The notes under the pieces are model-generated. The model did no database searches. It was given only the letters and a program-made list of their open reading frames with translations, and was not told the DNA's origin. From a virus, in the IMG/VR virus record IMGVR_UViG_3300009593_002635, positions 1 through 26,705 of that record: a DNA stretch of 26,705 nucleotides. One strand, written 5' to 3'. Positions 333 to 16,504 of the stretch are shown here, one piece after another. Position numbers and translations under genes: made by a program. The first letter of the stretch is position 1, and each line of letters begins with the position of its first letter.

Positions 333-475
333 AGTGGGGAAGCAGGAATCGAACCTGCACGAAGGGGAAACCTAATCGTTCCTCTGTGATTGTTGTGTAG
401 TTCTCTATATAGAAAGAGGTAAATCTTTCTTATCACAGTTCCCCGATCCTCAGCTCAAGGGTATTGGGCTAGGAT
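333..475 (-). ncRNA. Long tRNA-like intercistronic element (copy G)
   Basis: Read on the minus strand, GGGGAA (444-439) pairs with TTCCCC (341-336) as an acceptor-like stem. Immediately before the 3' strand is a perfect T-arm, GCAGG-TTCGATT-CCTGC (358-342). The 3' strand is followed by ACTA, resembling tRNA ACCA. Between the 5' strand and the T-arm is an insert with a seven-pair helix CTGTGAT/ATCACAG (438-432 with 390-384) that encloses a second hairpin AGAAAGA/TCTTTCT (430-424 with 417-411). An AGGTTT sequence before the T-arm may play the D-loop GG role. A single C (base 445) separates the element from a bulged hairpin at 446-475 that contains the stop codon of the 450-716 gene, just as in the six short copies. 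It lacks a normal D-arm and anticodon arm, so it is not a standard tRNA. No downstream hairpin like those of the short copies is seen. Confidence 0.7.
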
Positions 476-716
476 GATCTTGCCATGTATTGACATAAGC
501 TTGACCGAATTTTTCGATAGCGTCATGCTCAATCATGGTAAATATTTCTCTTGCATAGTTTGCAGGAATTCCTGGCATGCCCATAAAGGCGTTATCTACC
601 AGATCTTTCGCATACTTGAATGCAAGAGGATTAAATCGAATAGCTACTTCTAACTCTCGATAGTCTTCTTCCTTGCTAGGAAGAGGGTCTTTTACTTTCT
701 CTGTTGGTGATGTCAT
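450..716 (-). CDS. Small hypothetical phage protein (88 aa)
   Basis: No family is recognised. The N-terminus (about 20 residues) is charged and probably disordered. The rest looks helical with several Met, Ala and aromatic residues, including NAFMGMPGIPANYA at about residues 42-55 and a helix EIFTMIEHDAIEKFGQAY. The ATG at 714-716 is preceded by GGAGGT, which lies exactly in the six-base loop of a TTGACA/TGTCAA hairpin (718-735), so translation may be gated by that hairpin. It has its own promoter (extended -10 at 747-755), and so may start a separate transcript that reads through the tRNA-like element G into the 63-311 gene. The TGA stop falls inside the hairpin that precedes element G. Confidence 0.75.
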   Translation of the reverse strand: MTSPTEKVKDPLPSKEEDYRELEVAIRFNPLAFKYAKDLVDNAFMGMPGIPANYAREIFTMIEHDAIEKFGQAYVNTWQDHPSPIPLS

Positions 717-717
717 T

Positions 718-735
718 TTGACAACCTCCTGTCAA
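718..735 (-). promoter_or_regulatory. Shine-Dalgarno presented in a hairpin loop
   Basis: On the minus strand TTGACA, the loop GGAGGT and TGTCAA form a six-pair hairpin. The loop is the ribosome-binding site of the 450-716 gene and the ATG follows one base after the stem. The same TTGACA/TGTCAA palindrome recurs at 2107, 2394, 3012, 3836 and 4799, always at gene borders, so it may be a recognition site for a protein as well as an RNA fold. Confidence 0.55.
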
Positions 736-746
736 CCGTCACTGAC

Positions 747-776
747 ATTATATCATTGTCCATGATCTTTTGCCAT
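747..776 (-). promoter_or_regulatory. Extended -10 promoter for the 450-716 gene
   Basis: On the minus strand TATAAT (752-747) is a perfect -10 preceded by TGA, giving the extended form TGnTATAAT (755-747). At 17-18 bases upstream only a poor -35 match (TGGCAA/ATGGCA, around 770-776) is found, which is normal for extended -10 promoters. The start would fall near 740, leaving a leader of about 25 bases made mostly of the TTGACA/TGTCAA hairpin. This is the only place in the minus-strand block where a wide gap is used for a promoter instead of a tRNA-like element. Confidence 0.6.
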
Positions 777-827
777 GTCATCGATCCAAGTTAATAACTT
801 GTCACATGGTTGTTTAGCGTGGACACT

Positions 828-862
828 GAGTGGGGACACCATACAATCGATGCACCCCACTC
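828..862. repeat. 8-bp inverted repeat between methyltransferase gene and next promoter
   Basis: GAGTGGGG (828-835) and CCCCACTC (855-862) form a perfect eight-pair stem around a 19-base loop that contains the palindrome ATCGAT. It lies between the stop of the methyltransferase gene (911) and the promoter at 747-755. There is no U-tract on either strand, so a factor-independent terminator is unlikely. An operator, a processing hairpin or a pause site are alternatives. Confidence 0.4.
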
Positions 863-910
863 TGTCAGCTTCCACAGCTATCCACCTGTGACCAAATTGG
901 TCTTCAGTCA

Positions 911-1477
911 TCAGACTCTCCGTTTATCAAATAGTTCTGTCTGCTGGCTTTGCCTTTTTCTCTCAACAGTAACAATCGTGTCATTATGCCAACCGCCATG
1001 AGCTACAAGAAGAATTTCCTGTATCTCAAAACCAAGCGTTTTGCCAATACCACCACTGTTCCATCCAAGAGAAATAACATAACCATCATCCATCACTATT
1101 CGTGCAATCTGTTTTTTAAGCTTGCTGTAAAAAGCAGACTGGGTGTCTTCCATTGTCGTCACACGACCCACACCCTGATAACACTCGGTTATCTGTCTGG
1201 GACTGTATGGCGGATCAAATAGAACACCATTGACTGAATCTGTTCTCATATTGTCCAAAAACAATAAAGCATCTACATTCGTATCTGCTTCAAACTCAGG
1301 ATTCAAATCATTAGTCATCCACATGCGACTTTTGAATGGACTGTTCCTAACAAAAGGATCAACCCACCTAAAATCTTTTGACCATGTGCTGTCAATATAA
1401 TCTTGAATCAACTCATTGATTGGTTTAATACTGAAAGTGTCAGCATTGGGCATAGCCCATTTTCTGTAGATCTGCAT
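911..1477 (-). CDS. Putative DNA adenine methyltransferase (188 aa)
   Basis: The protein carries DPPYS at residues 88-92, the catalytic motif IV of amino (N6-adenine or N4-cytosine) DNA methyltransferases. WVDPFVRNSPF near residue 38 looks like the SAM-binding DPF motif in a degenerate form without the usual GxG. ISLGWNSGG around residue 135 resembles the S-x-GW stretch seen in small phage methyltransferases of this type. It would modify phage or host DNA in the cytoplasm, most likely to evade restriction. Upstream in-frame codons exist (to 1528), but I choose the ATG at 1477. It overlaps the preceding gene's stop as TGATG and has AGGTGG upstream. At 188 aa it is short for a stand-alone methyltransferase, so a target-recognition domain may be minimal or absent. 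Its specificity cannot be read from the sequence. Confidence 0.75.
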   Translation of the reverse strand: MQIYRKWAMPNADTFSIKPINELIQDYIDSTWSKDFRWVDPFVRNSPFKSRMWMTNDLNPEFEADTNVDALLFLDNMRTDSVNGVLFDPPYSPRQITECYQGVGRVTTMEDTQSAFYSKLKKQIARIVMDDGYVISLGWNSGGIGKTLGFEIQEILLVAHGGWHNDTIVTVERKRQSQQTELFDKRRV

Positions 1478-1845
1478 CAGTCCACCTTTTCTTTGTTGAG
1501 TTCTTGAGTGAGACGTTGAATCTCCCACTCTAAGTCAACTCGCTTTTTCCATTTAATGATTTCTTCCAACTGCTCTATCTCTAAAGTGCTAGCGATACTC
1601 TCTTTGTTCAAGCGAACATGACTAATCATGTGGTCGCCACCGAACTCATCCGAGAGTTGATAGTTGTCGTAATCATCTTTTGAATCAAACGAATTCATGT
1701 GAACGGTAATCTCTACGTGGTTGCCTTCCTCGTAGTCGATGTTCTGGGAAATTAGGTTGTGAAACCCATTTCCAATTACCAAATGAGAGTAATACTCGTT
1801 GTCCTCTGTCTGATCTTGAGGGATCGGGTTTAGATTTACTTTCAT
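1477..1845 (-). CDS. Hypothetical phage protein with C-terminal coiled coil (122 aa)
   Basis: No family is recognised. The first two thirds are acidic and look beta-rich (YYSHLVIGNGFHNL, VEITVHMNSFDSKDDYDNY). The last 35 residues (EIEQLEEIIKWKKRVDLEW and onward) have a heptad-like pattern of Leu and Ile with charged positions, suggesting a coiled coil and oligomerisation. The ATG at 1845 overlaps the stop of the gene before it as ATGA, and its own stop overlaps the methyltransferase start by one base. The three genes 1842-2084, this one and the methyltransferase are thus translationally coupled and have no tRNA-like element between them. A role linked to the methyltransferase is possible but is inferred only from this coupling. 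Confidence 0.75.
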   Translation of the reverse strand: MKVNLNPIPQDQTEDNEYYSHLVIGNGFHNLISQNIDYEEGNHVEITVHMNSFDSKDDYDNYQLSDEFGGDHMISHVRLNKESIASTLEIEQLEEIIKWKKRVDLEWEIQRLTQELNKEKVD

Positions 1846-2084
1846 CCGTCCACCACATTAAAATGATGGTCGATCCATGCTCTAGCTTTTTCTTTGTCTT
1901 CTATACGCACTGCCATAGGGCTCATGTTACGAAGATTCTGAGCGAGAATCTCAGCATCAGATTGAAGCTTTCGAGCACTGCCAGCAAGACAAATAGCTTG
2001 TTGCATGTGCTTGATAATTTCAAACTCTGTTGGTGAGAATACTTGCTCTGCTTTACTTTCAGGTAACTCAGGTAATTTACTCAA
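1842..2084 (-). CDS. Small helical hypothetical protein (80 aa), TTG start
   Basis: Unrecognised. It begins at TTG (2084-2082, reading M-S-K-L-P-E-L), seven bases after GGAGG; no in-frame ATG sits nearer to that ribosome-binding site. The sequence is almost entirely helical, with FEIIKHMQQAICLAGSARKL at about residues 22-41 and a final amphipathic helix containing KARAWIDHHF. A C-terminal VVDG ends it. It is the first gene after tRNA-like element A and leads a tightly overlapping trio ending in the methyltransferase. TTG may lower its expression relative to neighbours with the same Shine-Dalgarno sequence. Confidence 0.7.
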   Translation of the reverse strand: MSKLPELPESKAEQVFSPTEFEIIKHMQQAICLAGSARKLQSDAEILAQNLRNMSPMAVRIEDKEKARAWIDHHFNVVDG

Positions 2085-2106
2085 AGTTTTTCCTCCTCTA
2101 TTATTG

Positions 2107-2186
2107 TTGACACTTGTGTGTCAAGCGTCCCAGTCTAAGAATCGAACTTAGATTAAACCATTCTGGGGGACGACTTCTCAGTCGTC
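2107..2186 (-). ncRNA. tRNA-like intercistronic element, copy A
   Basis: Minus-strand order: a hairpin GACGAC/GTCGTC (2186-2169) holds the stop codon of the 2178-2384 gene in its loop; then a single C; stem P1 CCCAG (2167-2163); linker AATGGTTTAAT; T-arm CTAAG-TTCGATT-CTTAG (2151-2135); one A; P1' CTGGG (2133-2129); ACGC; and a hairpin TTGACAC/GTGTCAA (2124-2107). GAGGAGG of the next gene follows about eight bases later. The T-loop fits the tRNA consensus TTCRANY at every position, and the linker GG could dock with it as D-loop G18/G19 do. P1 and the T-stem differ from the other copies yet stay paired. Confidence 0.8.
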
Positions 2187-2384
2187 TAAACACTGTGAAG
2201 CAGTGATCTCTCTTCTGACTTCATTTAACTCATCAGTAGTGGGATCGTAGCCACTCCAGTTCATGTGTTCGGTTGCTTTTTCAAAAGCTTCCTCTTCATT
2301 TTTGGCTTGAACTTCTATGATGTCATCCATTTCAAAAATGACGTTCACATCAAATTGATATGTTTTAATTGCTTTCCTCCTCAT
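2178..2384 (-). CDS. Small hypothetical protein (about 63-68 aa), start codon uncertain
   Basis: The protein has a strand-turn-strand-helix look: TYQFDVNVIFEMDDIIEVQA, then NEEEAFEKATEHM. This weakly resembles small phage or plasmid domains in which a strand reading V-x-A is followed by an E-E-A helix (DpnD/PcfM-like); I treat that as a hint only. The only upstream ATG (2384) reads ATG AGG AGG, so it overlaps the Shine-Dalgarno sequence itself. Neighbouring genes start 5-9 bases after GAGGAGG, and here that place holds ATT (2369-2367). Initiation may use ATT, or the ATG without a separate ribosome-binding site. The stop codon lies in the hairpin loop of element A. Element B lies just upstream. 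Confidence 0.65.
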   Translation of the reverse strand: MRRKAIKTYQFDVNVIFEMDDIIEVQAKNEEEAFEKATEHMNWSGYDPTTDELNEVRREITASQCLDD

Positions 2385-2393
2385 TTATTTATG

Positions 2394-2476
2394 TTGACAC
2401 TGTTGTGTCAAGCGTCCCTTTACTGGAATCGAACCAGCACTAAAACCGTTAAGGGGACAGGCAGTTAGTAGCCTGT
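2394..2476 (-). ncRNA. tRNA-like intercistronic element, copy B
   Basis: Minus-strand order: hairpin ACAGGC/GCCTGT (2476-2457) with the stop codon of the 2465-2686 gene in its loop; C; P1 CCCTT (2455-2451); linker AACGGTTTTAGT (12 bases, one longer than other copies); T-arm GCTGG-TTCGATT-CCAGT (2438-2422, closed by a G-U pair); A; P1' AAGGG (2420-2416); ACGC; hairpin TTGACAC/GTGTCAA (2411-2394). The change of P1 from CCCTG/CAGGG to CCCTT/AAGGG is a compensated double change. The next gene's GAGGAGG follows after an AT-rich spacer. Confidence 0.8.
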
Positions 2477-2686
2477 GCTTGGTTGTTGGGTATTTACATT
2501 AGTGCCATGAAAGAAGAGCATAACTTCAGCTACTCTTCTAAGTTCCACTAATGGGCTCATATCTCCACCACTCAAGTCTCCACGTTTGATTAAAGAAACA
2601 TTCCATTCAACCAACTCGTGTAACTCTTTGATATTTGAATCCATTAGCGTCTTTAGCCTTTTTTCATCAAAAGATAATTCACTCAT
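2465..2686 (-). CDS. Small helical hypothetical protein (73 aa)
   Basis: Unrecognised. Starts MSELSFDEKRLKTLMDSN with an ATG that overlaps the stop of the 2683-2928 gene as ATGA, so it is coupled to that gene and needs no tRNA-like element before it. The body is two amphipathic helices (residues about 6-35 and 46-60) joined by a loop KRGDLSGGDMSP. The last 15 residues (NVNTQQPSTGY) look disordered. No membrane segment, Cys pair or catalytic motif is visible. Its stop codon lies in the hairpin loop of element B. Confidence 0.7.
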   Translation of the reverse strand: MSELSFDEKRLKTLMDSNIKELHELVEWNVSLIKRGDLSGGDMSPLVELRRVAEVMLFFHGTNVNTQQPSTGY

Positions 2687-2928
2687 GATGGACTCACTAT
2701 TCTGTTGATTTGAAATTTTTCTTCTTCAGTGAAGAAATCCCACACCTCAGTGATGGAATTTACTTCTCTATAAAAGACAGGCTCTTCAGCTCCTTCAGCA
2801 TCCATTGGAAGCTGTTCTGTAGAAGCCCAAAGCCGTCTAGCTAACTCATCGCTAACTCCGTCATAGCATTCAGCTATTTCATCTGGAGTTATTAGGTTTA
2901 ACCTTTTTACAGGTTGTATATCTGTCAT
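2683..2928 (-). CDS. Small acidic hypothetical protein (81 aa)
   Basis: Unrecognised. The protein is acidic and mostly helical, with LITPDEIAECYDGVSDELAR near residues 12-31 followed by RRLWASTEQL. A second half reads ITEVWDFFTEEEKFQINRIV, a helix typical of small phage proteins that bind a partner. It starts at ATG after GAGGAGG with about six bases spacing and follows tRNA-like element C. Its stop overlaps the start of the 2465-2686 gene (ATGA), so the two are one translational unit. Confidence 0.7.
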   Translation of the reverse strand: MTDIQPVKRLNLITPDEIAECYDGVSDELARRLWASTEQLPMDAEGAEEPVFYREVNSITEVWDFFTEEEKFQINRIVSPS

Positions 2929-2948
2929 GATTTCCTCCTCATATTGAT

Positions 2949-3030
2949 TTCAGTTATTTACTGAAGTCGTCCCTGCTAGAGAATCGAACTCTAGTTAAAC
3001 CGTTCAGGGGATTGACACAGATGTGTCAAT
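2949..3030 (-). ncRNA. tRNA-like intercistronic element, copy C
   Basis: Minus-strand order: hairpin ATTGACAC/GTGTCAAT (3030-3011), whose stem contains the stop codon of the 3026-3247 gene; C; P1 CCCTG (3009-3005); linker AACGGTTTAAC; T-arm TAGAG-TTCGATT-CTCTA (2993-2977); G; P1' CAGGG (2975-2971); ACGAC; hairpin TTCAGT/ACTGAA (2965-2949). The downstream hairpin has a wholly different sequence from copies A, B and F but the same position, which argues for structure rather than sequence being kept. GAGGAGG of the 2683-2928 gene follows. Confidence 0.8.
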
Positions 3031-3247
3031 TAGTTATGGAAAACCCATGTTCTCCTGCTTCGAGTATCCTTGTGGCTTGCTCATCGGATTTTATATATCC
3101 CCGAAGAGTCCACAATTCAACATTGACTTGCTTAAGTCTTCTTTGAGTCCTTGTCAAGAGCCAGTAGAAATCTTCTTTAGTCATTTCTTCAAACGTTTTC
3201 GTTTCCCATGAATCACCTTCACCGATAACGAATTTTTCATCAGTCAT
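3026..3247 (-). CDS. Small hypothetical protein (73 aa)
   Basis: Unrecognised. It starts MTDEKFVIGEGDSWETKTFEE, with a central amphipathic helix KEDFYWLLTRTQRRLKQVNV (about residues 24-43) whose hydrophobic face and run of basic residues could form a short coiled coil. It ends with EQATRILEAGEHGFSITN. The ATG follows GAGGAGG by about five bases. Elements D and C bracket it, so if these elements are processing sites this gene would become a monocistronic message. Confidence 0.7.
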   Translation of the reverse strand: MTDEKFVIGEGDSWETKTFEEMTKEDFYWLLTRTQRRLKQVNVELWTLRGYIKSDEQATRILEAGEHGFSITN

Positions 3248-3267
3248 AATTTCCTCCTCTTATTGAT

Positions 3268-3356
3268 TCCAACTATCTGTTGGAGTCGTCCCTGCTTGGG
3301 AATCGAACCCAAGAAAAACCGTTCAGGGGAAAAGCATTGGTTAGACCATTGCTTTT
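3268..3356 (-). ncRNA. tRNA-like intercistronic element, copy D
   Basis: Minus-strand order: imperfect hairpin AAAAGCA-A-TGG/CCA-A-TGCTTTT (3356-3330, one A-A mismatch) with the stop codon of the 3341-3754 gene in its loop; C; P1 CCCTG (3328-3324); linker AACGGTTTTTC; T-arm TTGGG-TTCGATT-CCCAA (3312-3296); G; P1' CAGGG (3294-3290); ACGAC; hairpin TCCAAC/GTTGGA (3284-3268). The first hairpin ends in TTTT and might also act as a weak terminator, but the tRNA-like core follows at once. The T-stem sequence is unique to this copy and fully paired. Confidence 0.8.
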
Positions 3357-3754
3357 TTCACCATGCTGTCAAATTTAGCTTTGGTGTGAACAGAGGCATT
3401 AGTCGAAAGACCAATACGCCTCTGCACATCCTCCAGAGTGACTGGAGTGGGTGAGTAGTTGTCAAGTGTTACCTTCTCGTCAAGCGAGCCTGTGAACAGG
3501 CGTGGTGACGATTCAGGCTTCCAAGTCTGAAGAACATTAAGACGGCGAAAGAACTCACCAACATTTTTAGATGTGATGCCATTCATTCCGATATCCATCG
3601 AACGGAAAATGATCCAAGTAGTAATTCGATCTTGGTTCATCTGTTCAACAGAAAGTCCGTCAACATACTCTTCACCTCCCATCGGGTTAGATTTAGTCTC
3701 AGCGACTATCTCTTCCCAATCGGTGACGTTTGATACTGACCATGTTAAAGCCAT
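3341..3754 (-). CDS. Hypothetical phage protein (137 aa)
   Basis: I cannot assign a function. The start is MALTWSVSNVTDWEEIV at an ATG five bases after GAGGAGG. TTWIIFRSMDIGMNGITSKN (about residues 45-64) looks like a buried helix-turn. It is followed by VGEFFRRLNVLQ, then a Pro- and Ser-rich link. VTLEDVQRRIGLSTNAS (about 104-120) could be a winged-helix-like recognition unit, but that is speculative. Proteins of similar size with a W-x-x-x-N-VTDWEEI start seem common in actinophage early regions; I state this from memory only. It lies between elements E and D. Confidence 0.7.
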   Translation of the reverse strand: MALTWSVSNVTDWEEIVAETKSNPMGGEEYVDGLSVEQMNQDRITTWIIFRSMDIGMNGITSKNVGEFFRRLNVLQTWKPESSPRLFTGSLDEKVTLDNYSPTPVTLEDVQRRIGLSTNASVHTKAKFDSMVKKAMV

Positions 3755-3772
3755 GATTCCTCCTCATGTGAT

Positions 3773-3853
3773 TCTAACTACTTGTTAGAGTCGTCCCTGC
3801 CAGAGAATCGAACTCTGGAGTAACCATTCAGGGGATTGACAGTTAATTGTCAA
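3773..3853 (-). ncRNA. tRNA-like intercistronic element, copy E
   Basis: Minus-strand order: hairpin TTGACA/TGTCAA (3853-3836) with the TAA of the protease gene in its loop; TC; P1 CCCTG (3833-3829); linker AATGGTTACTC; T-arm CAGAG-TTCGATT-CTCTG (3817-3801); G; P1' CAGGG (3799-3795); ACGAC; hairpin TCTAAC/GTTAGA (3789-3773). Compared with copy D, the last hairpin has C-to-T and G-to-A changes that keep the pair. The GAGGAGG of the 3341-3754 gene follows within about eight bases. Confidence 0.8.
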
Positions 3854-4775
3854 AAATACCATTGTTGTTTTGTTCCCATTCTTGTGGGTAGAAGTAGCCG
3901 TTACCGCTTATGCAGTCTTCAGGGAAATCTAAGTGCTCCTGTAGATCACCGTACTGATCTCTGAACCACCAGAACCCAAAGCGTCTGCCTTCAAAGATCT
4001 CTTCAGCTTTCTGAAATCTGTCAAGACCTTGATAAACGAATTCAACTCCTTCTTCAACAACCTCTTCACCATCTCTTGGGATTCTGCGATACTGACCCAT
4101 GCAGGTGCCACAGATCAGAGGAGCTATTGTCCTCCATGTGACATGACCGAATGAAGTCTCATGACCGCACTCACAAGTGACTGGGACTCTGGCCACACCC
4201 TTGTGGATGTGAGTGCCTTTGACCCTGCCAGTTTCAAGTGGGAGAGCTTCAAGAGCTTTCAACTCTTCGCTGTACACCTCAAGAGTTTCAGGAGTGACTT
4301 GCACTGCCGAGTAACCCCTTCGGGTACATGGCTTGTGGTCTTTTCCTTCTTCATCTTTAGGCCAAGCGAGTGTCAGCTCTTCAGCTAATGCTTTGAACAC
4401 TTTGTTGTGGTATCTGTTCTGACGAGAAGTGTCTTTCAACTCTCTGACATGAGCCACACCATGTACGGCTTCATGAATGAGAGTCTCAAGGATTCCTTCA
4501 GCGCCGAGAGACATGCATTCTCCAGAGATCATGACCTCAGAGATGTTCTTCTTGCTTACGTTCCAACCTCCGTACATGTAATGTCCGAATGTGGTTGATC
4601 CTCTACCATTAGAACCGCTCTGCTGTAACACAATGAAAGTTTCAGGTACGTCAGGATTGTTCTTCCTGATTGCCTTCCACACATCGTTCAAGACCTTGAG
4701 GATCTTGTCAGAGACTTGATACTCATAAGTGGTGTTTGCACCAACTAAGCGTTGTGCTGTTGCTATTGCATTCAT
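3843..4775 (-). CDS. SprT-like zinc metallopeptidase with zinc ribbon (310 aa)
   Basis: HEAVH at residues 101-105 is the zincin HExxH motif. A third ligand is probably His123 in RYHNKVFKALAEEL, the spacing and context of SprT/Spartan-like proteases. CEC (201-203) and CGTC (222-225) form a C-terminal zinc ribbon, also typical of SprT-like proteins. Such proteins cleave protein substrates, in cellular homologues DNA-crosslinked ones; the phage role is unknown and the cytoplasm is the likely site. An open frame runs up to 4853, but the ATG at 4775 is eight bases after GGAGG and lies right after element F, so I use it. The final 70 residues are acidic and aromatic with no clear match. Its TAA sits in the hairpin loop before element E. 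Confidence 0.82.
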   Translation of the reverse strand: MNAIATAQRLVGANTTYEYQVSDKILKVLNDVWKAIRKNNPDVPETFIVLQQSGSNGRGSTTFGHYMYGGWNVSKKNISEVMISGECMSLGAEGILETLIHEAVHGVAHVRELKDTSRQNRYHNKVFKALAEELTLAWPKDEEGKDHKPCTRRGYSAVQVTPETLEVYSEELKALEALPLETGRVKGTHIHKGVARVPVTCECGHETSFGHVTWRTIAPLICGTCMGQYRRIPRDGEEVVEEGVEFVYQGLDRFQKAEEIFEGRRFGFWWFRDQYGDLQEHLDFPEDCISGNGYFYPQEWEQNNNGIFDN

Positions 4776-4798
4776 AATGAATTCCTCCTCATTATTTG

Positions 4799-4879
4799 TT
4801 GACACATTCGTGTCAATCGTGCATGCCCCAGAATCGAACTGGGGAGAAACCATTCATGCGAACACTCCTAGTTTTGTTC
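4799..4879 (-). ncRNA. tRNA-like intercistronic element, copy F
   Basis: Minus-strand order: hairpin GAACA/TGTTC (4879-4860) with the TAG of the 4868-5227 gene in its loop, its last C doubling as the spacer base; P1 GCATG (4859-4855); linker AATGGTTTCTC; T-arm CCCAG-TTCGATT-CTGGG (4843-4827); G; P1' CATGC (4825-4821); ACGA; hairpin TTGACAC/GTGTCAA (4816-4799). P1 differs from CCCTG/CAGGG at three positions and all three are compensated. This is the best single argument that P1 forms in RNA. Confidence 0.82.
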
Positions 4880-6282: not shown

Positions 6283-8168
6283 TGTCTAAGCCACATAAGA
6301 GATGGTCTAAACAACGCCGCTTTGAGGCGGCGGTGTTGCGTGTTATTGATGACGGTTGGACTCAGGTTGAGGCAGCTAAGGAATATGATGTTTCTCGACA
6401 GCACCTAAACAAGAAGGTGAAAGAGGCTCGCCTTGAACGTGAGGTTCGGGTGGATGAGGCTAAGGCTAAAATCAAAATTTCGCCTTTGGGTCTTAATGAG
6501 GAACGCAGGGTCGGTACTTTTGAGGAGTTCGATCAAAGATACTTCGGTCATTGGATTTGCCCTGACTGTGACAAGCATCATGAGATGCCCGATTTTCATC
6601 GGGACATGGCTGAAGCCTGCCAAGGCGACTATAACCGTGTTGTTATTAATCTCCCTCCGTATCATTCCAAGTCAACGAACGTGACTGTTAAGGACACTAT
6701 CTATTCGCTGGTTAAGAACCCGAACTTGAGAACTCTTATTGTGTCTAAGTCTCTTCCGTTCGCTCGTACTTTCTTATATTCAATGAATGAACTGTTATGC
6801 AATCCTGATCTGTATGAAGGAGCGGCAGGAAACCTGATTGACGATTGGGGGCCGTTTAAACCTGAAGGATCTCAAGCTGTATGGAACCAAGAGCAGATCT
6901 ATGTTGCTGGCAGAATGACCGCTGAGAAAGACCCGACTGTTCAGGTGTTGGGTGTCGGCGCTCAGATTTACGGTAGGCGAGCTGACATTATTAAGTTTGA
7001 TGACGTTGCTACTTTAGATAACCAAAGAAACCCTGAAAGGGTACAAGACATGCTGGAGTGGATGGACAAGGAAGCTTTGTCTCGTATCGGTAAGAAAGGT
7101 AAAGCCATTTGGGTGGGTACTAGAGTTTCGCCAGGGGATGTGTATTCGACTTTAGCTAACCGACCTGGTTATAAAGTTTTAAGATACTCATGCATAACAG
7201 ACGATAACAATGAGGATGTTTTATGGGGGGATCATTTCCCTTATGAGCAGGCGATCATTCACCGTTCGGAGATGCGCCCTGCCGACTTCCAGTTGGTGTA
7301 CCAGAATGTGGACATCCCAGGGTTGGGTGCTTCCTTCACTCAAGAGATGCTCGATACTTGTAAGGATTCGTCTAGGACTACTGGGCATTATGAATCTGAT
7401 TGGCGTTTGATCGCTGGTCTTGATCCTGCTGGGGGTAATAAAGATTCTGGTTACACAGCATTTTCTTTAATCGGCGTGGATTTGCGTACTGGTAAACGCT
7501 ATTTGGTGGATCAGGTTGCGGTTAAATCTATGAAAGCTCCGCAGATGAAGGATCAGATTATTGCTTGGACTGAGAGGTACCCTTTGTTTGAGTGGCGTGT
7601 TGAGAATAATGGTTTGCAGTCTCAGTTGGTGCAGTACAACACGGAGATAATTCAGTATCTTGCTAAGAAGGGTGTGAGGGTTGTTCCTCATACTACTCAT
7701 AAGAATAAGTGGGACCCTCAGTTTGGTGTTGAGTCTATTGCTCCTTTGATGTCTGCTGAAATGTTTTCTATCCCTTGGGGTAATGCTCCTACTTGTAAAA
7801 CTTTCCAGCCTGCTATCGAAGAGTTTGTTGCTTTCCCTATGGGTATGGTTTCTGACAGAGTGATGTCAACTTGGTTCGCTGATCTTGGTTGTCGTGATCT
7901 TTTGAGTCGTGCTCATCTTCCGATGTTTAATGAAAGGATGAAGGTGCCTAATCGGATTAAACGCCGTAGGCATGTTGTTGATTTTCAGAGTCAGGAAGCT
8001 AGGAGGGTCAACTTGTCTGACCAAAGAAGCGGTCATATGGACAGAGGCCAGTGGGGGTATAGAAGACAAACTTTAGGTACTCCGCAGGCGCATGAGAATG
8101 TTGAGGAGTATGATGAAGAGAAGGGTCCTAAGTTTGTTAATGTAGAAGGATACGTGTCAGATAAGTGA
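6282..8168 (+). CDS. terL: Terminase large subunit with N-terminal helix-turn-helix (628 aa)
   Basis: This is the DNA-packaging motor, an ATPase plus nuclease that docks on the portal. Residues about 16-50 form a helix-turn-helix (WTQVEAAKEYDVSRQHLNKK), a DNA-binding unit normally carried by the separate small subunit. CPDC (93-96) and DFHRDM precede the ATPase. PPYHSKST (125-132) stands in the Walker A place but lacks the usual GK. ADIIKFDD (234-241) is Walker B, and GTRVSPGDVYS (279-289) is the likely coupling motif. The nuclease begins with GLDPAGG (Asp381), and VENNG (Glu441) is a second acidic site. The length is somewhat above the usual 450-600. The start overlaps the leader gene. No small terminase gene is visible, which fits the fused domain. 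Confidence 0.92.
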   Translation: MSKPHKRWSKQRRFEAAVLRVIDDGWTQVEAAKEYDVSRQHLNKKVKEARLEREVRVDEAKAKIKISPLGLNEERRVGTFEEFDQRYFGHWICPDCDKHHEMPDFHRDMAEACQGDYNRVVINLPPYHSKSTNVTVKDTIYSLVKNPNLRTLIVSKSLPFARTFLYSMNELLCNPDLYEGAAGNLIDDWGPFKPEGSQAVWNQEQIYVAGRMTAEKDPTVQVLGVGAQIYGRRADIIKFDDVATLDNQRNPERVQDMLEWMDKEALSRIGKKGKAIWVGTRVSPGDVYSTLANRPGYKVLRYSCITDDNNEDVLWGDHFPYEQAIIHRSEMRPADFQLVYQNVDIPGLGASFTQEMLDTCKDSSRTTGHYESDWRLIAGLDPAGGNKDSGYTAFSLIGVDLRTGKRYLVDQVAVKSMKAPQMKDQIIAWTERYPLFEWRVENNGLQSQLVQYNTEIIQYLAKKGVRVVPHTTHKNKWDPQFGVESIAPLMSAEMFSIPWGNAPTCKTFQPAIEEFVAFPMGMVSDRVMSTWFADLGCRDLLSRAHLPMFNERMKVPNRIKRRRHVVDFQSQEARRVNLSDQRSGHMDRGQWGYRRQTLGTPQAHENVEEYDEEKGPKFVNVEGYVSDK

Positions 8169-10218: not shown

Positions 10219-10645
10219 ACCAGATATAGTTGAAAAAACGCCGACACAAAACATGTCGGTTAATAAACCTGAGTCTGGTACCTATGGTGAACGAGCTGAG
10301 ACTGACCGTTTAAAGAAGGAACTTCCTTCTTCTGGTGGTCCTGTCGAAGGTCAACAACAAGCACCTCCAAGAGCTCAAGCTTCCCCTAATCGTCCTCCTA
10401 AAAATATGACTGTAATGGAAGAAGCAGGACCTGTAGGTGTCCCTAATGAATTAATGCATCAAGGGCGAGGCTTAAATCCTATGATCCCTTCAACAGGTAA
10501 TGTTATGGCTGGACCTGAGAATGCTGCTCAGGCTCGGATAGCTTTGTTGGATACTTTAGCCAACAGTAGAGAAGTTTCAGAGGAGACTAGAGAATGGGCT
10601 CAAATCGTTTTAGGGATGTTGTTAGATGGCTCTTCAACTTCCTAA
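10211..10645 (+). CDS. Pro/Gln-rich hypothetical protein (144 aa), GTG start
   Basis: It begins with GTG at 10211 (M-A-E-P-D-I-V) inside the end of the portal gene, with AGAGG just upstream. The first 100 residues are hydrophilic and rich in Pro, Gln and Ser, probably disordered. The C-terminus (AQARIALLDTLANSREVSEE and onward) forms two helices. It contains ESGTYG at residues 21-26, also found at residues 79-84 of the 2054-residue protein with different codons. A short, disordered protein next to the portal could be a scaffold, a plug or a linker; nothing in it decides. It overlaps the next gene by 20 bases. Confidence 0.7.
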   Translation: MAEPDIVEKTPTQNMSVNKPESGTYGERAETDRLKKELPSSGGPVEGQQQAPPRAQASPNRPPKNMTVMEEAGPVGVPNELMHQGRGLNPMIPSTGNVMAGPENAAQARIALLDTLANSREVSEETREWAQIVLGMLLDGSSTS

Positions 10646-13600
10646 TTCAGAACAACCCGACAGAGAAACACTTCTAGAAACTTATGGTAAGAACCCTTTA
10701 AAAGGTTTAGCTAAAACAGCGACCATGTTCATGCCTGATTGGTTGTCAGGTGTACCTAGAAATGAGTTGTCTTTACAGGACACTGTTAAAAGCATGATTG
10801 AATTCACCCCTGTTGTGGGTGATGTCATGGACCTTAAAGAAGGTGCTGATTTTCAAAATGATTTAGATCCTCTTGAAAGAGGGTTAGCTATTTTCGCTGG
10901 TTTAGGCGCTGTAGGTGCTGGTGTTCATATTGCTAATAATAGTTACACAACAATGCGTCAAAGATACATACAGGACATTAAAGGTATGGCTGTTACACCT
11001 GTTGCTACTGACCCTGCTCCTGCTGGTGAACGTCCAATAATCCAAATGAAAAAACAACAGGAAGATTTCGATTCGATTAGGAGAACATTAGTAGAGAAAT
11101 CTAGAAAAGGTTCTAGAAGGCAAATACAGTTAGGTGAAAAAGAAAAAAGATTTGTTTACACAGAGGGCGGTGGCGCTCCTAGACATGTGCAAATTTCTGT
11201 AGCGGAAACATTAACAGATCTTCACAACGCCATTTACAGTAAGACTAAATCTCCTCAAAAAATAGGGGATAATGTAAGTAGAAGAGATTCTGCTTTTGCT
11301 GGTTTCGTATGGCAGTTAGGGACATTAGTGCTGCATGACCGAGGGGTGGATGCATCACAGTTCGGTACTTTTGACGAAGCTTTAATGACCTCTAATACAG
11401 AGAGTGCTTTAGAAACAGAAGAAGGTGTTTTTGGATTGAGAATACCTCCAGAATTGTTAGAAGCAGCTACCGAAGCGCTTTCTATATTCTCTCAAATTTA
11501 TGATGCGGAACTAATCAACGATGTCACAACACGAAGGTCAGGTAACAGGTTATTCGGTCCACTTGGTAAGGATGGTGACTTGTTTTTACCAGAAAGCACA
11601 GAAGGTGAACCTGATGCATTTTGGTCATTTGAAGATGTAGGGGCAGTAAGTGCTTTTATTTCTGATTTAGCTGACATAACAGATGTTGTTAAAAGACACT
11701 CCTCTGGTGATATACGTATTACTCCTAACATGCAATGGAATTCTTTTTATAGAACTAGCAATGGGAGAATGCAAGGTAATTTAAATATTCACATCATGCC
11801 TGATAGTAGATATGTGGATGTTGAAAATGGTGCGATTTTAGATCCTGAAGGTTTACAGCAACAGCTTTGGCGTTTGGATTGGGAAACAGTTATACCTCAA
11901 ATGGTATTAAACCTTCTTTCAATAAATGAAGGCGGCACTTCGGTTGCTGTGAACGATGTTCATAGGGCTAAAGCTAAAGAATGGTATCCACAGTTCAACA
12001 AATTAATAAATGTTATTAGTGAAAGGTATGGAGTGACTCCTATTCAGGCTGGAGCTATCATTTCTGCTCTTTCTCCTAGAGCCGCATGGGACCCAGATAA
12101 TGTCAATTGGGGTATTCTTGGAGTTTTTGAAGCCACTACTGGCATAACCGATGAAATAGCTCAGTTGAATGAGTTGAATGAAGTACGTCAACTAGCAGGT
12201 TTCGCTCCTGTGACACGATTCAAATCTTTCGGGTCAGCTCTTTCAGTAGGTCAAGGTAAAGTTGCGGAACTTCTAGAAGGTAAAAATCCTGTAGAAGTTT
12301 TAAGGATGCTTAAAACAATGTCTTTCCTTCATAATGGTTTATTCCCAGAAGGAACTGCTGCTGATAGTCCTTTTGGTATTCAAGTTATAACTGCGGACAC
12401 TCACCATTTCAGAGCTATCAGTGGATTTTTTCATGCCGCTGAAGCTCCTTGGATGAGACAAGGAAGAGATGTCACTAAACAAGAACAGTTCTGGGAATCT
12501 GGGATAGGTCTTGATATGAAATCAAGAACAGCATCTTCTGTTGAGGGATTGAAGGAAGCCCACGGTATGTCAGAATTAGTTCCAGAAGGGTTAGCTGTTC
12601 CTCATAGTGTCGCTGAAAAAACTTATGATGCGATTACAAGAGCGACAGTTATAGCCGCTGAAATTTTAGGGATTAAACCCATCGAAGCTCAAGCAATGTT
12701 TTGGCAACCAGTTCAAGAAGCAGGTGTGTCAGGTGGGGGTACTTTAGGAGGAGCTAAAACAGCGGTTTGGAATGATGCAATAATAAAAGAAATAGAAGGA
12801 AGAAGTTCCACTTCACCTTCTTTAACTGATGCTTTAAGTCTAATAGATAGCAAATTGATAGATCCTATGACATCTGATTTAGACATATTCACTGTCGCAG
12901 ATGTTCATAATTATGAACCAGATGTAGGTATCCTTATTGCTTCTAGTAGTACTGGTATAAGAATTTATGCTGACCCTTCAAAGGCTGGTGTAGCAGATCA
13001 ATTAAGGACAGCTAGACCGATCAACGCTGAACCTGTTTTGTTAAAAGGTAAAAAAGAAGGTTTAGAGTGGAGTCGCAGTAAACCAACTGCAACTAAAGCT
13101 AACCCTATTCGTTGGGTTGCACGTAAATCTCGTAAAGCTAACCTAGGCGTTGTCACTAAAGGAATGTTTGAGTCTGCGCCTGCTAGTGAAGTCAGAACAA
13201 TAACTGATCCTTCCGTGATGGAAAACATCCCTGATGTGCATGCAGCAGGCAACTTTATTGTTGTGGAAGTTGAACAAGGAGGAGAAGGTGCTGTTAATAA
13301 GATTATTAACGAAATGCCTTTACCTTATGTGACTTCTGTTCAGGTGCCGATAACAATTCAATCAGCAGGACGTTCTTCTTACAAAATGTCTTCAACAGAA
13401 TTAGAAGCTGGTCTTGGTTCTAAACCTTCCAACAACCCTTTAATTAACAACAATTGGGTGATGGTACCTCAAGAGAATCAAAGGTTGATAGGTACTCTCA
13501 GGAGAAAAGGTTACAGCATAACTCCTGCTTATATGAGAGTCGGGGATCAGGTAGAACAAACATGGCTGATTATGGGTATAGATGAATCAACAAAAGGTTT

Positions 13601-16295
13601 GGATTCATTTTCCAGAATATGGACACAGGATGCGATGTTCGACAATATAGCTGGAACAATGACTCCTTCAGAGGGAGGGGTCAATATAGGTCGTGAAGGG
13701 GGAACAGAATTTAGTGTTCTAACAGAAAAAGGTGGGGAAGACTTTTCTATAGAATATGACGAAAGTATGTCAGTTCCTGCTGTTCAAGAGAATGTGTCTA
13801 CATCAGGCGCAGAAGCTAAATCTTCTAAAAGAACACAGATCATCATTTCTTTAGGTTCGACTGCTGACCCTGGGATGGTTAGTAACTTATGGAAGAGCTT
13901 TGATGCAGATGGTTCAGTCGTGAGCTTGTCAGGATATTTTCATGGCAAGCTTTGGACTGATGCATCTATGGAAAAAGTTGGTGAATATTCTTACACAAAT
14001 GGTCAAGAAAGAATAACTCAAAGAGCGCAACATAACCCTCTCGGTTTAACTGACGAGAATTATTATGATGTTTGGGTTCCGAAAACGGAAGCAAACAGTC
14101 TTTCTCATACTCATGGGGCTTTCGCTACTAAAGGTAATTACGGAGTGAAAGTGGAACGTATATCTGACCAGTCATCTGTAATAGATGGTGAAACACAAAT
14201 CTTTTCAGTTGATGGAGTTTTGGAAGTAAACCCTGAAAACATTTTTCGATCCACAGTTGATGGTCAACAGATTGAAGAAATAGCTATTATCACAACCCCA
14301 ACTGGTGAAAGAAGAATGGTTGTAGGTCAAGAAGGTAAAGTAGCGTATCAAGTCATGTCAGCATTTGGGAAAGGGATGATTCAACCTCCAGCGATCTTTT
14401 CTTTAACTGCTACAGGAAAAATCAAAGACATATCTAATGATGCTCTTCAAGTTCCAAAAGATTGGACGAGTTCAAAAAGTATAAAAGACATAGGTGCTCA
14501 TTTTGCTAAACAACCTTCTTGGGAATTTGGCACTGCTCATTCAGTAGGTGAAGCACAAGGTAAGGGTCGTGGATTGGATGCTGTTGAAAAAGGAAGAGAG
14601 CAATTACCTACTGCTTCCCCATATGACATGGGTGTGTATGACCCAGCGTATGTAACAGAAATAAATGACTTGTTGTCTTCAATCGAATTTTTGGTCAGGT
14701 ATGGTGCTAGTTCATCAAAGATAAGTGGTCTTTTAAAGAATCATCCTTTAGGTGCAGCTCTTTCAAGTAGATGGTCACCAATAGGAATGTTGACAGCTAG
14801 TAGCAGAACAGGTAGTAAAGCCACAAGAGCATATACTTTGCAGCAATTTGAAAGTTGGATTAATCAAGAGTTTAGTTCTTTCGCATTTGCTGATGACCCT
14901 GATTTGATTAGTTCTGGTCATGATGCTTTCATAGACGCTCATGGGGTGACAGATAGCGCTAATAACCCTGAAGCTCAAACAATGAGAGAAAGGAAACAAA
15001 GTCAGCTTTCTCCTGAGAAACAAGCAGAGTATAAGGCTTTAGCCGCAAAGCTAATAGGCGACTATTCTATTTTTCCTGATTATAAGATCCCTCTTTTAGC
15101 AGGCTATCTGTATCCACAAATAGAATCTGAGATTACAGGTAAAGGAGATAACAGACTTAATGAGGCTAGAGAAAAAATTGTTTTAGCAACGATACAAGCT
15201 ATAGGTGCTTTGACTGAAAGACCAGGGTTTACCCCTACTAATCCTTTAAGTAATTTACCTGGGATAAAAAAGTTTAGAGAGAAGCATGGTGGAATTGTTT
15301 TCCCTGGTGTAGCTCTTTTAGCAGGAAGTATAACTATAGGCGCTAAAAACTCTGCCTTTAATGTTCAAGGACAATCTGAATGGGGAGGGGTTATGATCGC
15401 TTCTTATTTGAGTGAAGGTCGTTCGGATACATCAGGAGATGGACCTATTTATGATTTGACTCATAGTGGAAATTTTGCTTTAGACGAAGATGGAAATCCT
15501 GTTTATGAACAAGGCATACATCTCAGCGTGGAACAGATAATGGCTTTAGGGGACATGGAATATTATTTAAGAGGAATCAAATATAATTATGTGGCTGGAG
15601 GAAATAAAATTCGATACGTTGAAAAGTTACAAAAAACTAACCCTGAAGCGATTCTTGCTAGAACAATGATTCACGAATTTGGTCATGCTGTTCATGGTGC
15701 TTTAAGTGAAATTGGAAGAGGACACACTCTAAGAGAAGGAATGGATCGTATAGTCCAAAGTTACGGTGGCGTTGGAGTTGTGTATAGGGAAATAGGAAGG
15801 TATGCGTCTTCAAGTTGGAGGGAACTTTTTGCTGAATCTTTCACAGATGTAATGCTTTTAGGTGATGATGCTCACCCTATGGCACATGATCTTGTTGAGT
15901 TAGCTCACCAGCTTTTATATTCAGAAGATGTTGGTCCTATACGAAAAGAAATAGAACAGTTATCTTCAAAACAAGGGTTGAGAAGTATAGCAGTTGCTCA
16001 GTTTAATAAAAAAGGTGAGATCAAATCTGATTACCTAAACCCTTATGATATAGGAGCACCTAATACAATCACTCCTTTCTGGCAGTACGGTATAACTGCA
16101 AGAGATTATGGAAGAGCAGGAATAAATTCTGTACCTCAAAAACATGGGCCGTGGAGAACAATATTCCACTATTTGGAAGATATAGGTCGTAACGGTGGGG
16201 AAACATCCACTAGCGTAAAAACACCTATAAGACGAATCAAAACTAAGAAAACTGATCCTAACTTTAGTAAAAAAGATTGGGAAAGTTTAAGATGA
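10626..16295 (+). CDS. Giant multidomain virion protein with C-terminal zincin (1889 aa), polyvalent-like
   Basis: Visible parts in order: residues 59-100 carry TPVVGDVMDLKEG...DPLERGLAIFAGLGAVGAG, which resembles the pre-toxin PT-TG motif and ends in a hydrophobic Gly/Ala segment. Residues about 445-700 hold WYPQF(453), ALSPRAAW(481-488), TADTHHFRA(589-597) and QAMFW(689-693), a pattern I recall from small actinophage proteins of unknown function. A long mixed middle with no clear motif follows. Residues 1683-1687 are HEFGH with FAES at 1735-1738 (Glu1737 as possible third zinc ligand), a metallopeptidase of gluzincin type. Such domain strings are known from phage polyvalent proteins packed in virions and injected with DNA. 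It starts 20 bases inside the previous gene. A shared virion function is inferred; the cleaved substrate is unknown. Confidence 0.75.
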   Translation: MALQLPNSEQPDRETLLETYGKNPLKGLAKTATMFMPDWLSGVPRNELSLQDTVKSMIEFTPVVGDVMDLKEGADFQNDLDPLERGLAIFAGLGAVGAGVHIANNSYTTMRQRYIQDIKGMAVTPVATDPAPAGERPIIQMKKQQEDFDSIRRTLVEKSRKGSRRQIQLGEKEKRFVYTEGGGAPRHVQISVAETLTDLHNAIYSKTKSPQKIGDNVSRRDSAFAGFVWQLGTLVLHDRGVDASQFGTFDEALMTSNTESALETEEGVFGLRIPPELLEAATEALSIFSQIYDAELINDVTTRRSGNRLFGPLGKDGDLFLPESTEGEPDAFWSFEDVGAVSAFISDLADITDVVKRHSSGDIRITPNMQWNSFYRTSNGRMQGNLNIHIMPDSRYVDVENGAILDPEGLQQQLWRLDWETVIPQMVLNLLSINEGGTSVAVNDVHRAKAKEWYPQFNKLINVISERYGVTPIQAGAIISALSPRAAWDPDNVNWGILGVFEATTGITDEIAQLNELNEVRQLAGFAPVTRFKSFGSALSVGQGKVAELLEGKNPVEVLRMLKTMSFLHNGLFPEGTAADSPFGIQVITADTHHFRAISGFFHAAEAPWMRQGRDVTKQEQFWESGIGLDMKSRTASSVEGLKEAHGMSELVPEGLAVPHSVAEKTYDAITRATVIAAEILGIKPIEAQAMFWQPVQEAGVSGGGTLGGAKTAVWNDAIIKEIEGRSSTSPSLTDALSLIDSKLIDPMTSDLDIFTVADVHNYEPDVGILIASSSTGIRIYADPSKAGVADQLRTARPINAEPVLLKGKKEGLEWSRSKPTATKANPIRWVARKSRKANLGVVTKGMFESAPASEVRTITDPSVMENIPDVHAAGNFIVVEVEQGGEGAVNKIINEMPLPYVTSVQVPITIQSAGRSSYKMSSTELEAGLGSKPSNNPLINNNWVMVPQENQRLIGTLRRKGYSITPAYMRVGDQVEQTWLIMGIDESTKGLDSFSRIWTQDAMFDNIAGTMTPSEGGVNIGREGGTEFSVLTEKGGEDFSIEYDESMSVPAVQENVSTSGAEAKSSKRTQIIISLGSTADPGMVSNLWKSFDADGSVVSLSGYFHGKLWTDASMEKVGEYSYTNGQERITQRAQHNPLGLTDENYYDVWVPKTEANSLSHTHGAFATKGNYGVKVERISDQSSVIDGETQIFSVDGVLEVNPENIFRSTVDGQQIEEIAIITTPTGERRMVVGQEGKVAYQVMSAFGKGMIQPPAIFSLTATGKIKDISNDALQVPKDWTSSKSIKDIGAHFAKQPSWEFGTAHSVGEAQGKGRGLDAVEKGREQLPTASPYDMGVYDPAYVTEINDLLSSIEFLVRYGASSSKISGLLKNHPLGAALSSRWSPIGMLTASSRTGSKATRAYTLQQFESWINQEFSSFAFADDPDLISSGHDAFIDAHGVTDSANNPEAQTMRERKQSQLSPEKQAEYKALAAKLIGDYSIFPDYKIPLLAGYLYPQIESEITGKGDNRLNEAREKIVLATIQAIGALTERPGFTPTNPLSNLPGIKKFREKHGGIVFPGVALLAGSITIGAKNSAFNVQGQSEWGGVMIASYLSEGRSDTSGDGPIYDLTHSGNFALDEDGNPVYEQGIHLSVEQIMALGDMEYYLRGIKYNYVAGGNKIRYVEKLQKTNPEAILARTMIHEFGHAVHGALSEIGRGHTLREGMDRIVQSYGGVGVVYREIGRYASSSWRELFAESFTDVMLLGDDAHPMAHDLVELAHQLLYSEDVGPIRKEIEQLSSKQGLRSIAVAQFNKKGEIKSDYLNPYDIGAPNTITPFWQYGITARDYGRAGINSVPQKHGPWRTIFHYLEDIGRNGGETSTSVKTPIRRIKTKKTDPNFSKKDWESLR

Positions 16296-16504
16296 AATCT
16301 ATTTGTCACATATGCCAATATTGGAAACCTGGGATACAACACCCTAATGGCAAACAGACTTGTGAAGCTTTCCCAGAAGAGATTCCAATAGATGTATGGA
16401 ACGGTGAGGTGCAACACACTACTCCTATGAGGGGTGACGGTGGTATTATTTTTACACCAGTAGAAGATTTAACACCTGAAGATATAGAAGAGTATTTAGC
16501 ATGA
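16292..16504 (+). CDS. Small Cys-rich protein (70 aa)
   Basis: The ATG at 16292 overlaps the stop of the giant gene as ATGA; a TTG five codons upstream (16277) is a less likely start. The protein begins MKSICHICQYW and has CEAFPEEIPIDVW about 20 residues later, then HTTPMRGDGGIIFTP. The layout C-x2-C, then C-x-AFP-x-x-IP, then H and DGG-x-x-F is that of a widespread family of tiny bacterial and phage proteins that probably bind zinc or another metal; no activity is known to me. It sits between two giant virion genes and overlaps the next start as ATGA, so it is made with them. It might be a chaperone or assembly factor for them. Confidence 0.75.
   Translation: MKSICHICQYWKPGIQHPNGKQTCEAFPEEIPIDVWNGEVQHTTPMRGDGGIIFTPVEDLTPEDIEEYLA

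Follow-up and report, generated by a model that had tools for sequence, protein, structure and literature searches.

The virus record IMGVR_UViG_3300009593_002635 (IMG/VR) provides a 26,705-nucleotide (nt) stretch of DNA, hereafter the window, whose minus strand carries six short copies of an intergenic RNA repeat, termed here the mini-tRNA. The repeat appears to be a minimal tRNA mimic in which an acceptor-like stem (P1) is set on a T-arm, and both the helices and the contact between linker and T-loop covary. On balance, it probably serves as a signal for the processing of operon mRNA by host RNase P.

Two helices and a tRNA-like elbow supported by covariation

The six short copies are 42-43 nt long and lie on the coding strand of the adjacent genes. 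From 5′ to 3′, each consists of an unpaired C, a P1 of 5 base pairs (bp), a linker, a T-stem of 6 bp that encloses the loop TTCGATT, the returning strands of T-stem and P1, and ACG. The linker is made up of AAYGG and 5-6 further nt (10-11 nt in total), while the 5′ strand of P1 reads CCCTG, CCCTT, CCCAG, or GCATG. A preliminary description of this DNA had reported six such copies, with closing stem, AAYGG linker, TTCGATT T-arm, and ACG, and both their coordinates and a structural descriptor scan confirm it; across the window and related loci, some of them overlapping, the scan recovers 100 copies versus 1 in shuffled sequence. The motif AATCGAA occurs 12 times in the window versus 3.2 ± 1.8 times in shuffles. 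Its occurrence at 634 lies within a gene and is a chance match.

Covariation is strong in both helices, as expected of the miniature tRNA-like fold originally proposed. In a 37-row alignment, 98% of the paired cells hold a pair, two-sided changes affect 10 of the 11 pairs, and the covariation score is 0.829 versus 0.205 for shuffled alignments and at most 0.21 in slid registers. The full set of 268 copies described below repeats the same pattern. The preliminary description had allowed that a covariance search might return neither further copies nor covariation; the outcome is the opposite, with hundreds of copies and covarying helices.

The linker GG had also been suggested to dock with the T-loop. 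tRNA contains the tertiary pairs G18-U55 and G19-C56, and the equivalent contact was evaluated in loci obtained by terminase similarity or phage name only, which leaves linker and loop unconstrained. Among structures in these loci with an NNCRA loop, the linker/loop combination GG/TTC occurs 37 times, AG/TGC 19 times, and AG/TTC not at all (Fisher p 3e-14, uncorrected for relatedness). One G18-like copy is accompanied by TGC; its linker reads GT rather than GG, and it is probably a chance structure. In all loci taken together, where the search patterns favored these classes, there are 118 GG/TTC copies, another 25 in which the linker is displaced by one position, 35 AG/TGC copies, and zero crossed combinations. 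Thus, in copies found with no requirement on loop or linker, position pair 18-55 covaries between G-U and A-G while G19 and C56 are kept, and the matching of U55→G by G18→A fits the prediction of a real 18-55 contact. G19, T54, C56, and A58 never vary among the 268 copies, a set whose underlying scan itself required these four bases. Such covariation supports the suggested docking and is hard to explain without a tRNA elbow contact, in which A18-G55 would be an alternative elbow pair not usual in tRNAs. Because the AG/TGC class cannot carry pseudouridine at 55, it seems to be the shape of the elbow, rather than its modification, that is kept.

Distribution in phages and placement between genes

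Related phages were gathered by DNA pattern and by terminase relatives. As the descriptor scan had asked for pairing, IMG/VR was also scanned by sequence only, with two patterns (either AACGGTT or AATGGTT, then after a gap GTTCGATTC, followed by 10 nt and AC) that do not select for pairing; 230 of the 254 matches in the collected loci nevertheless form 5-6 of 6 T-stem pairs and 5 of 5 P1 pairs. In total, 268 unique copies of 42-44 nt were collected from 156 loci, 15 of which hold at least four unique copies. Five loci that match the pattern without gene context (L006, L008, L019, L009, and L021) are excluded from all claims. Named phages with the element include Predator, Cuke, Fowlmouth, the Wildcat group (MaryV, Cosmo), and Papyrus or Riparian (Predator, Cuke, Cosmo/Wildcat, and Papyrus being mycobacteriophages), with 12 copies on a contig (L121) that matches Papyrus or Riparian. 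In Predator and Cuke, the copies are unannotated and occupy short gaps of one-direction gene arrays. The terminase of the window matches those of known phages only below 60% identity. The repeat had been presented as punctuating a phage operon; it is indeed a real repeat family, although one that is widespread in phages and not special to this operon.

Bacterial genomes were considered as the main home of the element and rejected. A scan of 84,980 bacterial and archaeal genomes, which differs from the phage scan in size and somewhat in pattern, yields 7 pattern matches, of which 3 are well paired, all in Glycomyces; the element therefore looks phage-associated. The Glycomyces genomes (L285, L289, and L291) have one model match each, on bacterial contigs, with similar flanks and the stem GGGCG/CGTCC. 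Two further observations concern variation among copies. All pattern-matched copies of L076:80-2627 and L103:8763-10716 share the P1 GGCGC/GCGCC while their T-stems differ, which suggests spread of copies within a genome. At three loci (L031, minus strand, 6879-6929; L034, minus strand, 1388-1438; and L010:4915-4965), the linker measures at least 17 nt and contains a small hairpin that resembles a vestigial or nascent D-arm.

The short copies were expected to be intergenic, and in the window each sits between a stop codon, located 8-16 nt before the element, and the Shine-Dalgarno (SD) site of the next gene. A hairpin and then GAGGAGG follow the element on its 3′ side in all six cases; the hairpins are perfect, span 6-7 bp, and vary in arm sequence from copy to copy. 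Across the family, an upstream reading frame is clear for 206 copies, of which 102 begin 7-10 nt after its stop codon, and the annotated genes of Cuke give a gap of 8-10 nt for 8 of 10 copies. The distance to the next start is 40 nt at the median, with a 10-90% range of 15-85 nt. In the class that ends in ACG, 71% of copies have a 3′ hairpin with five or more Watson-Crick pairs that starts within 8 nt of the ACG, compared to 4.4% in shuffles, and most of these hairpins begin 0-2 nt after it. They comprise 48 distinct arms; since the arms vary with compensation, interpreting the palindrome chiefly as a DNA operator was rejected. Some copies of the window also have a hairpin on the 5′ side, ahead of P1, which was rejected as a general feature (at least 5 bp in 18% versus 4.5% in shuffles).

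The bases that flank P1 are likewise restricted. In the ACG class, 94% of copies carry C or A at position -1, neither of which can pair with A73. A73-C74 is followed by G, A, or T, and ACC occurs in 2 of the 268 copies; from this near absence of ACC, an encoded CCA appears to be avoided.

Proposed operon punctuation and competing explanations

To the observed stems, the elbow contact shown by covariation, the stop-to-gene placement, and the hairpin, the proposal that the repeat directs RNase P adds cleavage, the enzymes responsible, and separate stable messages, all as predictions. Judging by their arrangement, the genes that flank the copies probably share one transcript. On this transcript, the single-stranded linker would take the role of the D-loop and dock on the T-loop to form a tRNA elbow, which host RNase P would hold while cutting P1 on its 5′ side. 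On the 3′ side, the cut would fall at the unpaired A73 or beyond it and would be made by RNase Z or another nuclease. The upstream message would be released with a short tail past its stop codon, and the downstream message would gain a stable hairpin near its new 5′ end, directly before the ribosome-binding site. Such 5′-terminal hairpins can protect bacterial mRNA. RNase P RNA makes its RCC contact with the 3′ end of tRNA through the L15 loop, with which A73-C74 of the element could pair. An encoded CCA blocks RNase Z, and CC avoidance would leave the 3′ side accessible to it. RNase P itself recognizes the stack of T-stem and acceptor stem, with the elbow as the point from which it measures a fixed distance (PMC4919913). 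Model substrates that contain nothing beyond acceptor stem, T-stem, and T-loop are cleaved by the enzyme, whose protein touches the leader at positions -8 to -3 (PMC11143913). The mini-tRNA supplies exactly this set of parts, and the stop codon is set back by about the length of this leader.

Several points weigh against cleavage by RNase P, which is itself predicted from sequence. The acceptor/T stack amounts to 11 bp (5 + 6) versus 12 in tRNA, and the RNase P ruler would thus need either a C1-A72-like open pair or some tolerance. Bacterial initiator tRNA has an open C-A end pair, and one of this kind would restore the 12-bp length. RCC is partly present, with A73-C74 in place and C75 lacking. 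In some copies, the element begins before the end of the upstream stop codon (gaps from -8 to -1), which a cut at P1 would therefore remove. In the ACA/ACT class, 3′ hairpins are few (21%, compared to 11% in shuffles) and the stop spacing is weaker and looser; this class is therefore treated as a variant, and the 5′-protection step is not general to all phages. Finally, the same stop spacing would suit an element that folds beside a terminating ribosome for another reason.

The last point leads to the main rival, a translational role in which the elbow, at the leading edge of the terminating ribosome, alters termination, recycling, or re-initiation without cleavage. A ribosome with a stop codon in its A site covers 7-10 nt of mRNA downstream, a length equal to the gap between stop codon and P1, and the SD site and start follow shortly downstream (median start distance 40 nt). 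In addition, the L1 stalk reads tRNA elbows via the same interdigitated T-loops (PMC4919913). This role is nonetheless unlikely in our assessment, as the start distance is variable (15-85 nt over the 10-90% range), every gene of the window has its own strong SD, and such a role would explain neither the conserved A73-C74, which stays unpaired, nor the lack of CC at 74-75.

Somewhat less probable still is that a phage or host protein, such as a repressor or RNA chaperone, binds the element by reading its elbow and coordinates operon expression. The several copies per genome, their single orientation, and the small gaps they occupy recall the repeats of Microbacterium phages (PMC7302621), and a host factor that reads tRNA elbows could act in this way; stem sequences, however, vary freely, and on a non-exhaustive check the phages are so different that one shared phage protein is unlikely. 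Very improbable, and already disfavored, is a functionless origin as a selfish or recombinational repeat or as decayed tRNA genes (att-like remnants). Multiple copies with genome-specific wording, e.g., AACGGTTTTCG in the Cuke group, do suggest spread within genomes, but selection on a folded RNA is evident from the compensatory changes in both stems, from the switch at 18-55, and from the fixed spacing, and tRNA models fail to match the copies.

Processing by RNase P, the preferred explanation, would have consequences beyond the window. Phages of the T7 type process operon transcripts at RNase III sites, and the element would represent a different route to operon processing. It would also supply a natural minimal substrate for studies of RNase P and the elbow, including the swap of G18-U55 for A18-G55, and a ready part for splitting synthetic operons; in essence, it would be the bacterial-virus counterpart of mitochondrial tRNA punctuation. 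The broader proposition, that widespread and previously undescribed minimal tRNA mimics recruit host tRNA-maturation enzymes to split operon mRNAs in unrelated phages, stands evenly balanced in our judgment. Irrespective of cleavage, the mini-tRNA is perhaps the smallest natural element in which a tRNA elbow is supported by evidence, and it is present in hundreds of copies in phages that include well-known mycobacteriophages.

Known RNAs, the long copy, and other window features

The element has apparently escaped notice because neither tRNA finders nor Rfam models recognize it. ARAGORN reports 0 tRNAs and no tmRNA (transfer-messenger RNA) in the window, and Rfam gives nothing there at gathering thresholds and no meaningful match at E 5. 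Applied to Cuke, the Rfam tRNA model (RF00005) finds two true tRNAs and none of the mini-tRNA copies. Among the features of that family, the copies have the T-arm with a TTCRANN loop and the contacts 18-55 and 19-56; they lack the 12-bp stack and 3′ CCA (11 bp, and AC followed by G, A, or T) as well as the cloverleaf. The absence of D and anticodon arms had been noted at the outset and agrees with the two-helix anatomy of 42-44 nt. At one locus, an ARAGORN tRNA-Gln (L055:6734-6818) overlaps a mini-tRNA copy (6732-6776) and is probably a false call.

Three groups of known elements resemble the mini-tRNA in part. (i) The tRNA-like domain of tmRNA also has an acceptor-like stem, a T-arm, and a D-loop without D-stem. 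Unlike tmRNA (RF00023), the element has no P2 helix, no tag reading frame, for which 42-44 nt is too short, and no encoded CCA; Wildcat-group phages carry a separate annotated tmRNA gene. (ii) Plant mitochondrial t-elements are tRNA-like processing signals, and mitochondrial tRNA punctuation likewise separates the genes of a polycistronic RNA by tRNAs or tRNA-like folds, an arrangement that the stop-to-gene placement and the Cuke annotation also give for the mini-tRNA. In mitochondria, RNase P, together with RNase Z, acts at tRNAs and tRNA-like sequences to free mRNAs (PMC9181182). Those signals are whole tRNAs or larger folds of organelles, whereas the element has two helices, resides in phage operons in up to a dozen copies, and is predicted to be processed. 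(iii) The start-associated sequences and intergenic repeats of actinophages are also repeated in one orientation, upstream of starts, and in small gaps (PMC7302621). They are short motifs or inverted repeats, whereas the mini-tRNA is an RNA fold that includes a tertiary contact and precedes the SD site. Other intergenic repeats without an assigned function also occur in actinophages (PMC7302621).

Phage RNAs that are substrates of host RNase P are known, namely the phi80-induced M3 RNA and the C4 antisense RNA of P1/P7 (Rfam clan CL00128) (PMC11143913, PMC12710915); these are RNAs separate from the element. A c4-2 RNA (RF02944, E 3e-7) is found at L087:4384-4462, on a contig with mini-tRNA copies. 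As this sole match overlaps no copy, c4-2 was rejected as the identity of the element. A mycobacteriophage genomics paper that names Predator makes no mention of the element (PMC3029335), and the literature searched holds no earlier description, which papers outside that set could contain. As an RNA family, the mini-tRNA matches none of those that could be tested, while tRNA mimicry as a principle is already known.

The long copy (Table 1) had been counted as a seventh member of the family. Its acceptor stem GGGGAA/TTCCCC, T-arm, and ACT are all present. It is, however, a distinct RNA: T-stem and acceptor stem divide as 5+6 rather than 6+5, there are approximately 60 nt of additional stems, the whole RNA spans approximately 112 nt directly upstream of an SD site, and the mini-tRNA covariance model gives a weak score of 18 bits. 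Three relatives (L014:2749, L011:7374, and L066:16727), one of them identical across the compared stretch, keep the acceptor stem, T-arm, and ACT, and the inner stem shows a compensatory change from CTGTGA/TCACAG to CCGTGA/TCACGG. The long copy is very likely a real tRNA-like RNA whose structure includes extra helices and sets it apart from the mini-tRNA family. The AGGTTT initially assigned as its docking linker is not conserved, being replaced by AAGTTC in L011 and L066; docking is more plausibly assigned to the GG of the conserved AGGARC, which directly follows the inner stem.

Table 1. Mini-tRNA copies, associated hairpins and SD sites, and the long copy in the window (all on the minus strand)
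Feature	Position	Sequence features	Covariance-model score (bits)
Mini-tRNA copy 1	4818-4859	P1 GCATG/CATGC, linker AATGGTTTCT, TTCGATT, ACG	64.3
Mini-tRNA copy 2	3792-3833	P1 CCCTG/CAGGG	63.3
Mini-tRNA copy 3	3287-3328	P1 CCCTG/CAGGG	65.1
Mini-tRNA copy 4	2968-3009	P1 CCCTG/CAGGG	64.0
Mini-tRNA copy 5	2413-2455	P1 CCCTT/AAGGG, 11-nt linker	59.4
Mini-tRNA copy 6	2126-2167	P1 CCCAG/CTGGG	64.2
3′ hairpin, copy 1	4799-4816	TTGACAC/GTGTCAA	
3′ hairpin, copy 2	3773-3789	TCTAAC/GTTAGA	
3′ hairpin, copy 3	3268-3284	TCCAAC/GTTGGA	
3′ hairpin, copy 4	2949-2965	TTCAGT/ACTGAA	
3′ hairpin, copy 5	2394-2411	TTGACAC/GTGTCAA	
3′ hairpin, copy 6	2107-2124	TTGACAC/GTGTCAA	
SD site, copy 1	4784-4790	GAGGAGG	
SD site, copy 2	3759-3765	GAGGAGG	
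SD site, copy 3	3253-3259	GAGGAGG	
SD site, copy 4	2934-2940	GAGGAGG	
SD site, copy 5	2376-2382	GAGGAGG	
SD site, copy 6	2092-2098	GAGGAGG	
Long tRNA-like copy	333-444	Acceptor stem 439-444/336-341, inner stem 432-438/384-390, T-arm 342-358, ACT 333-335	

Elsewhere in the window, the plus strand encodes two very large proteins downstream of terminase and portal, of 1889 amino acids (10626-16295) and 2054 amino acids (16501-22665). DUF7178 is the only domain match of the former.

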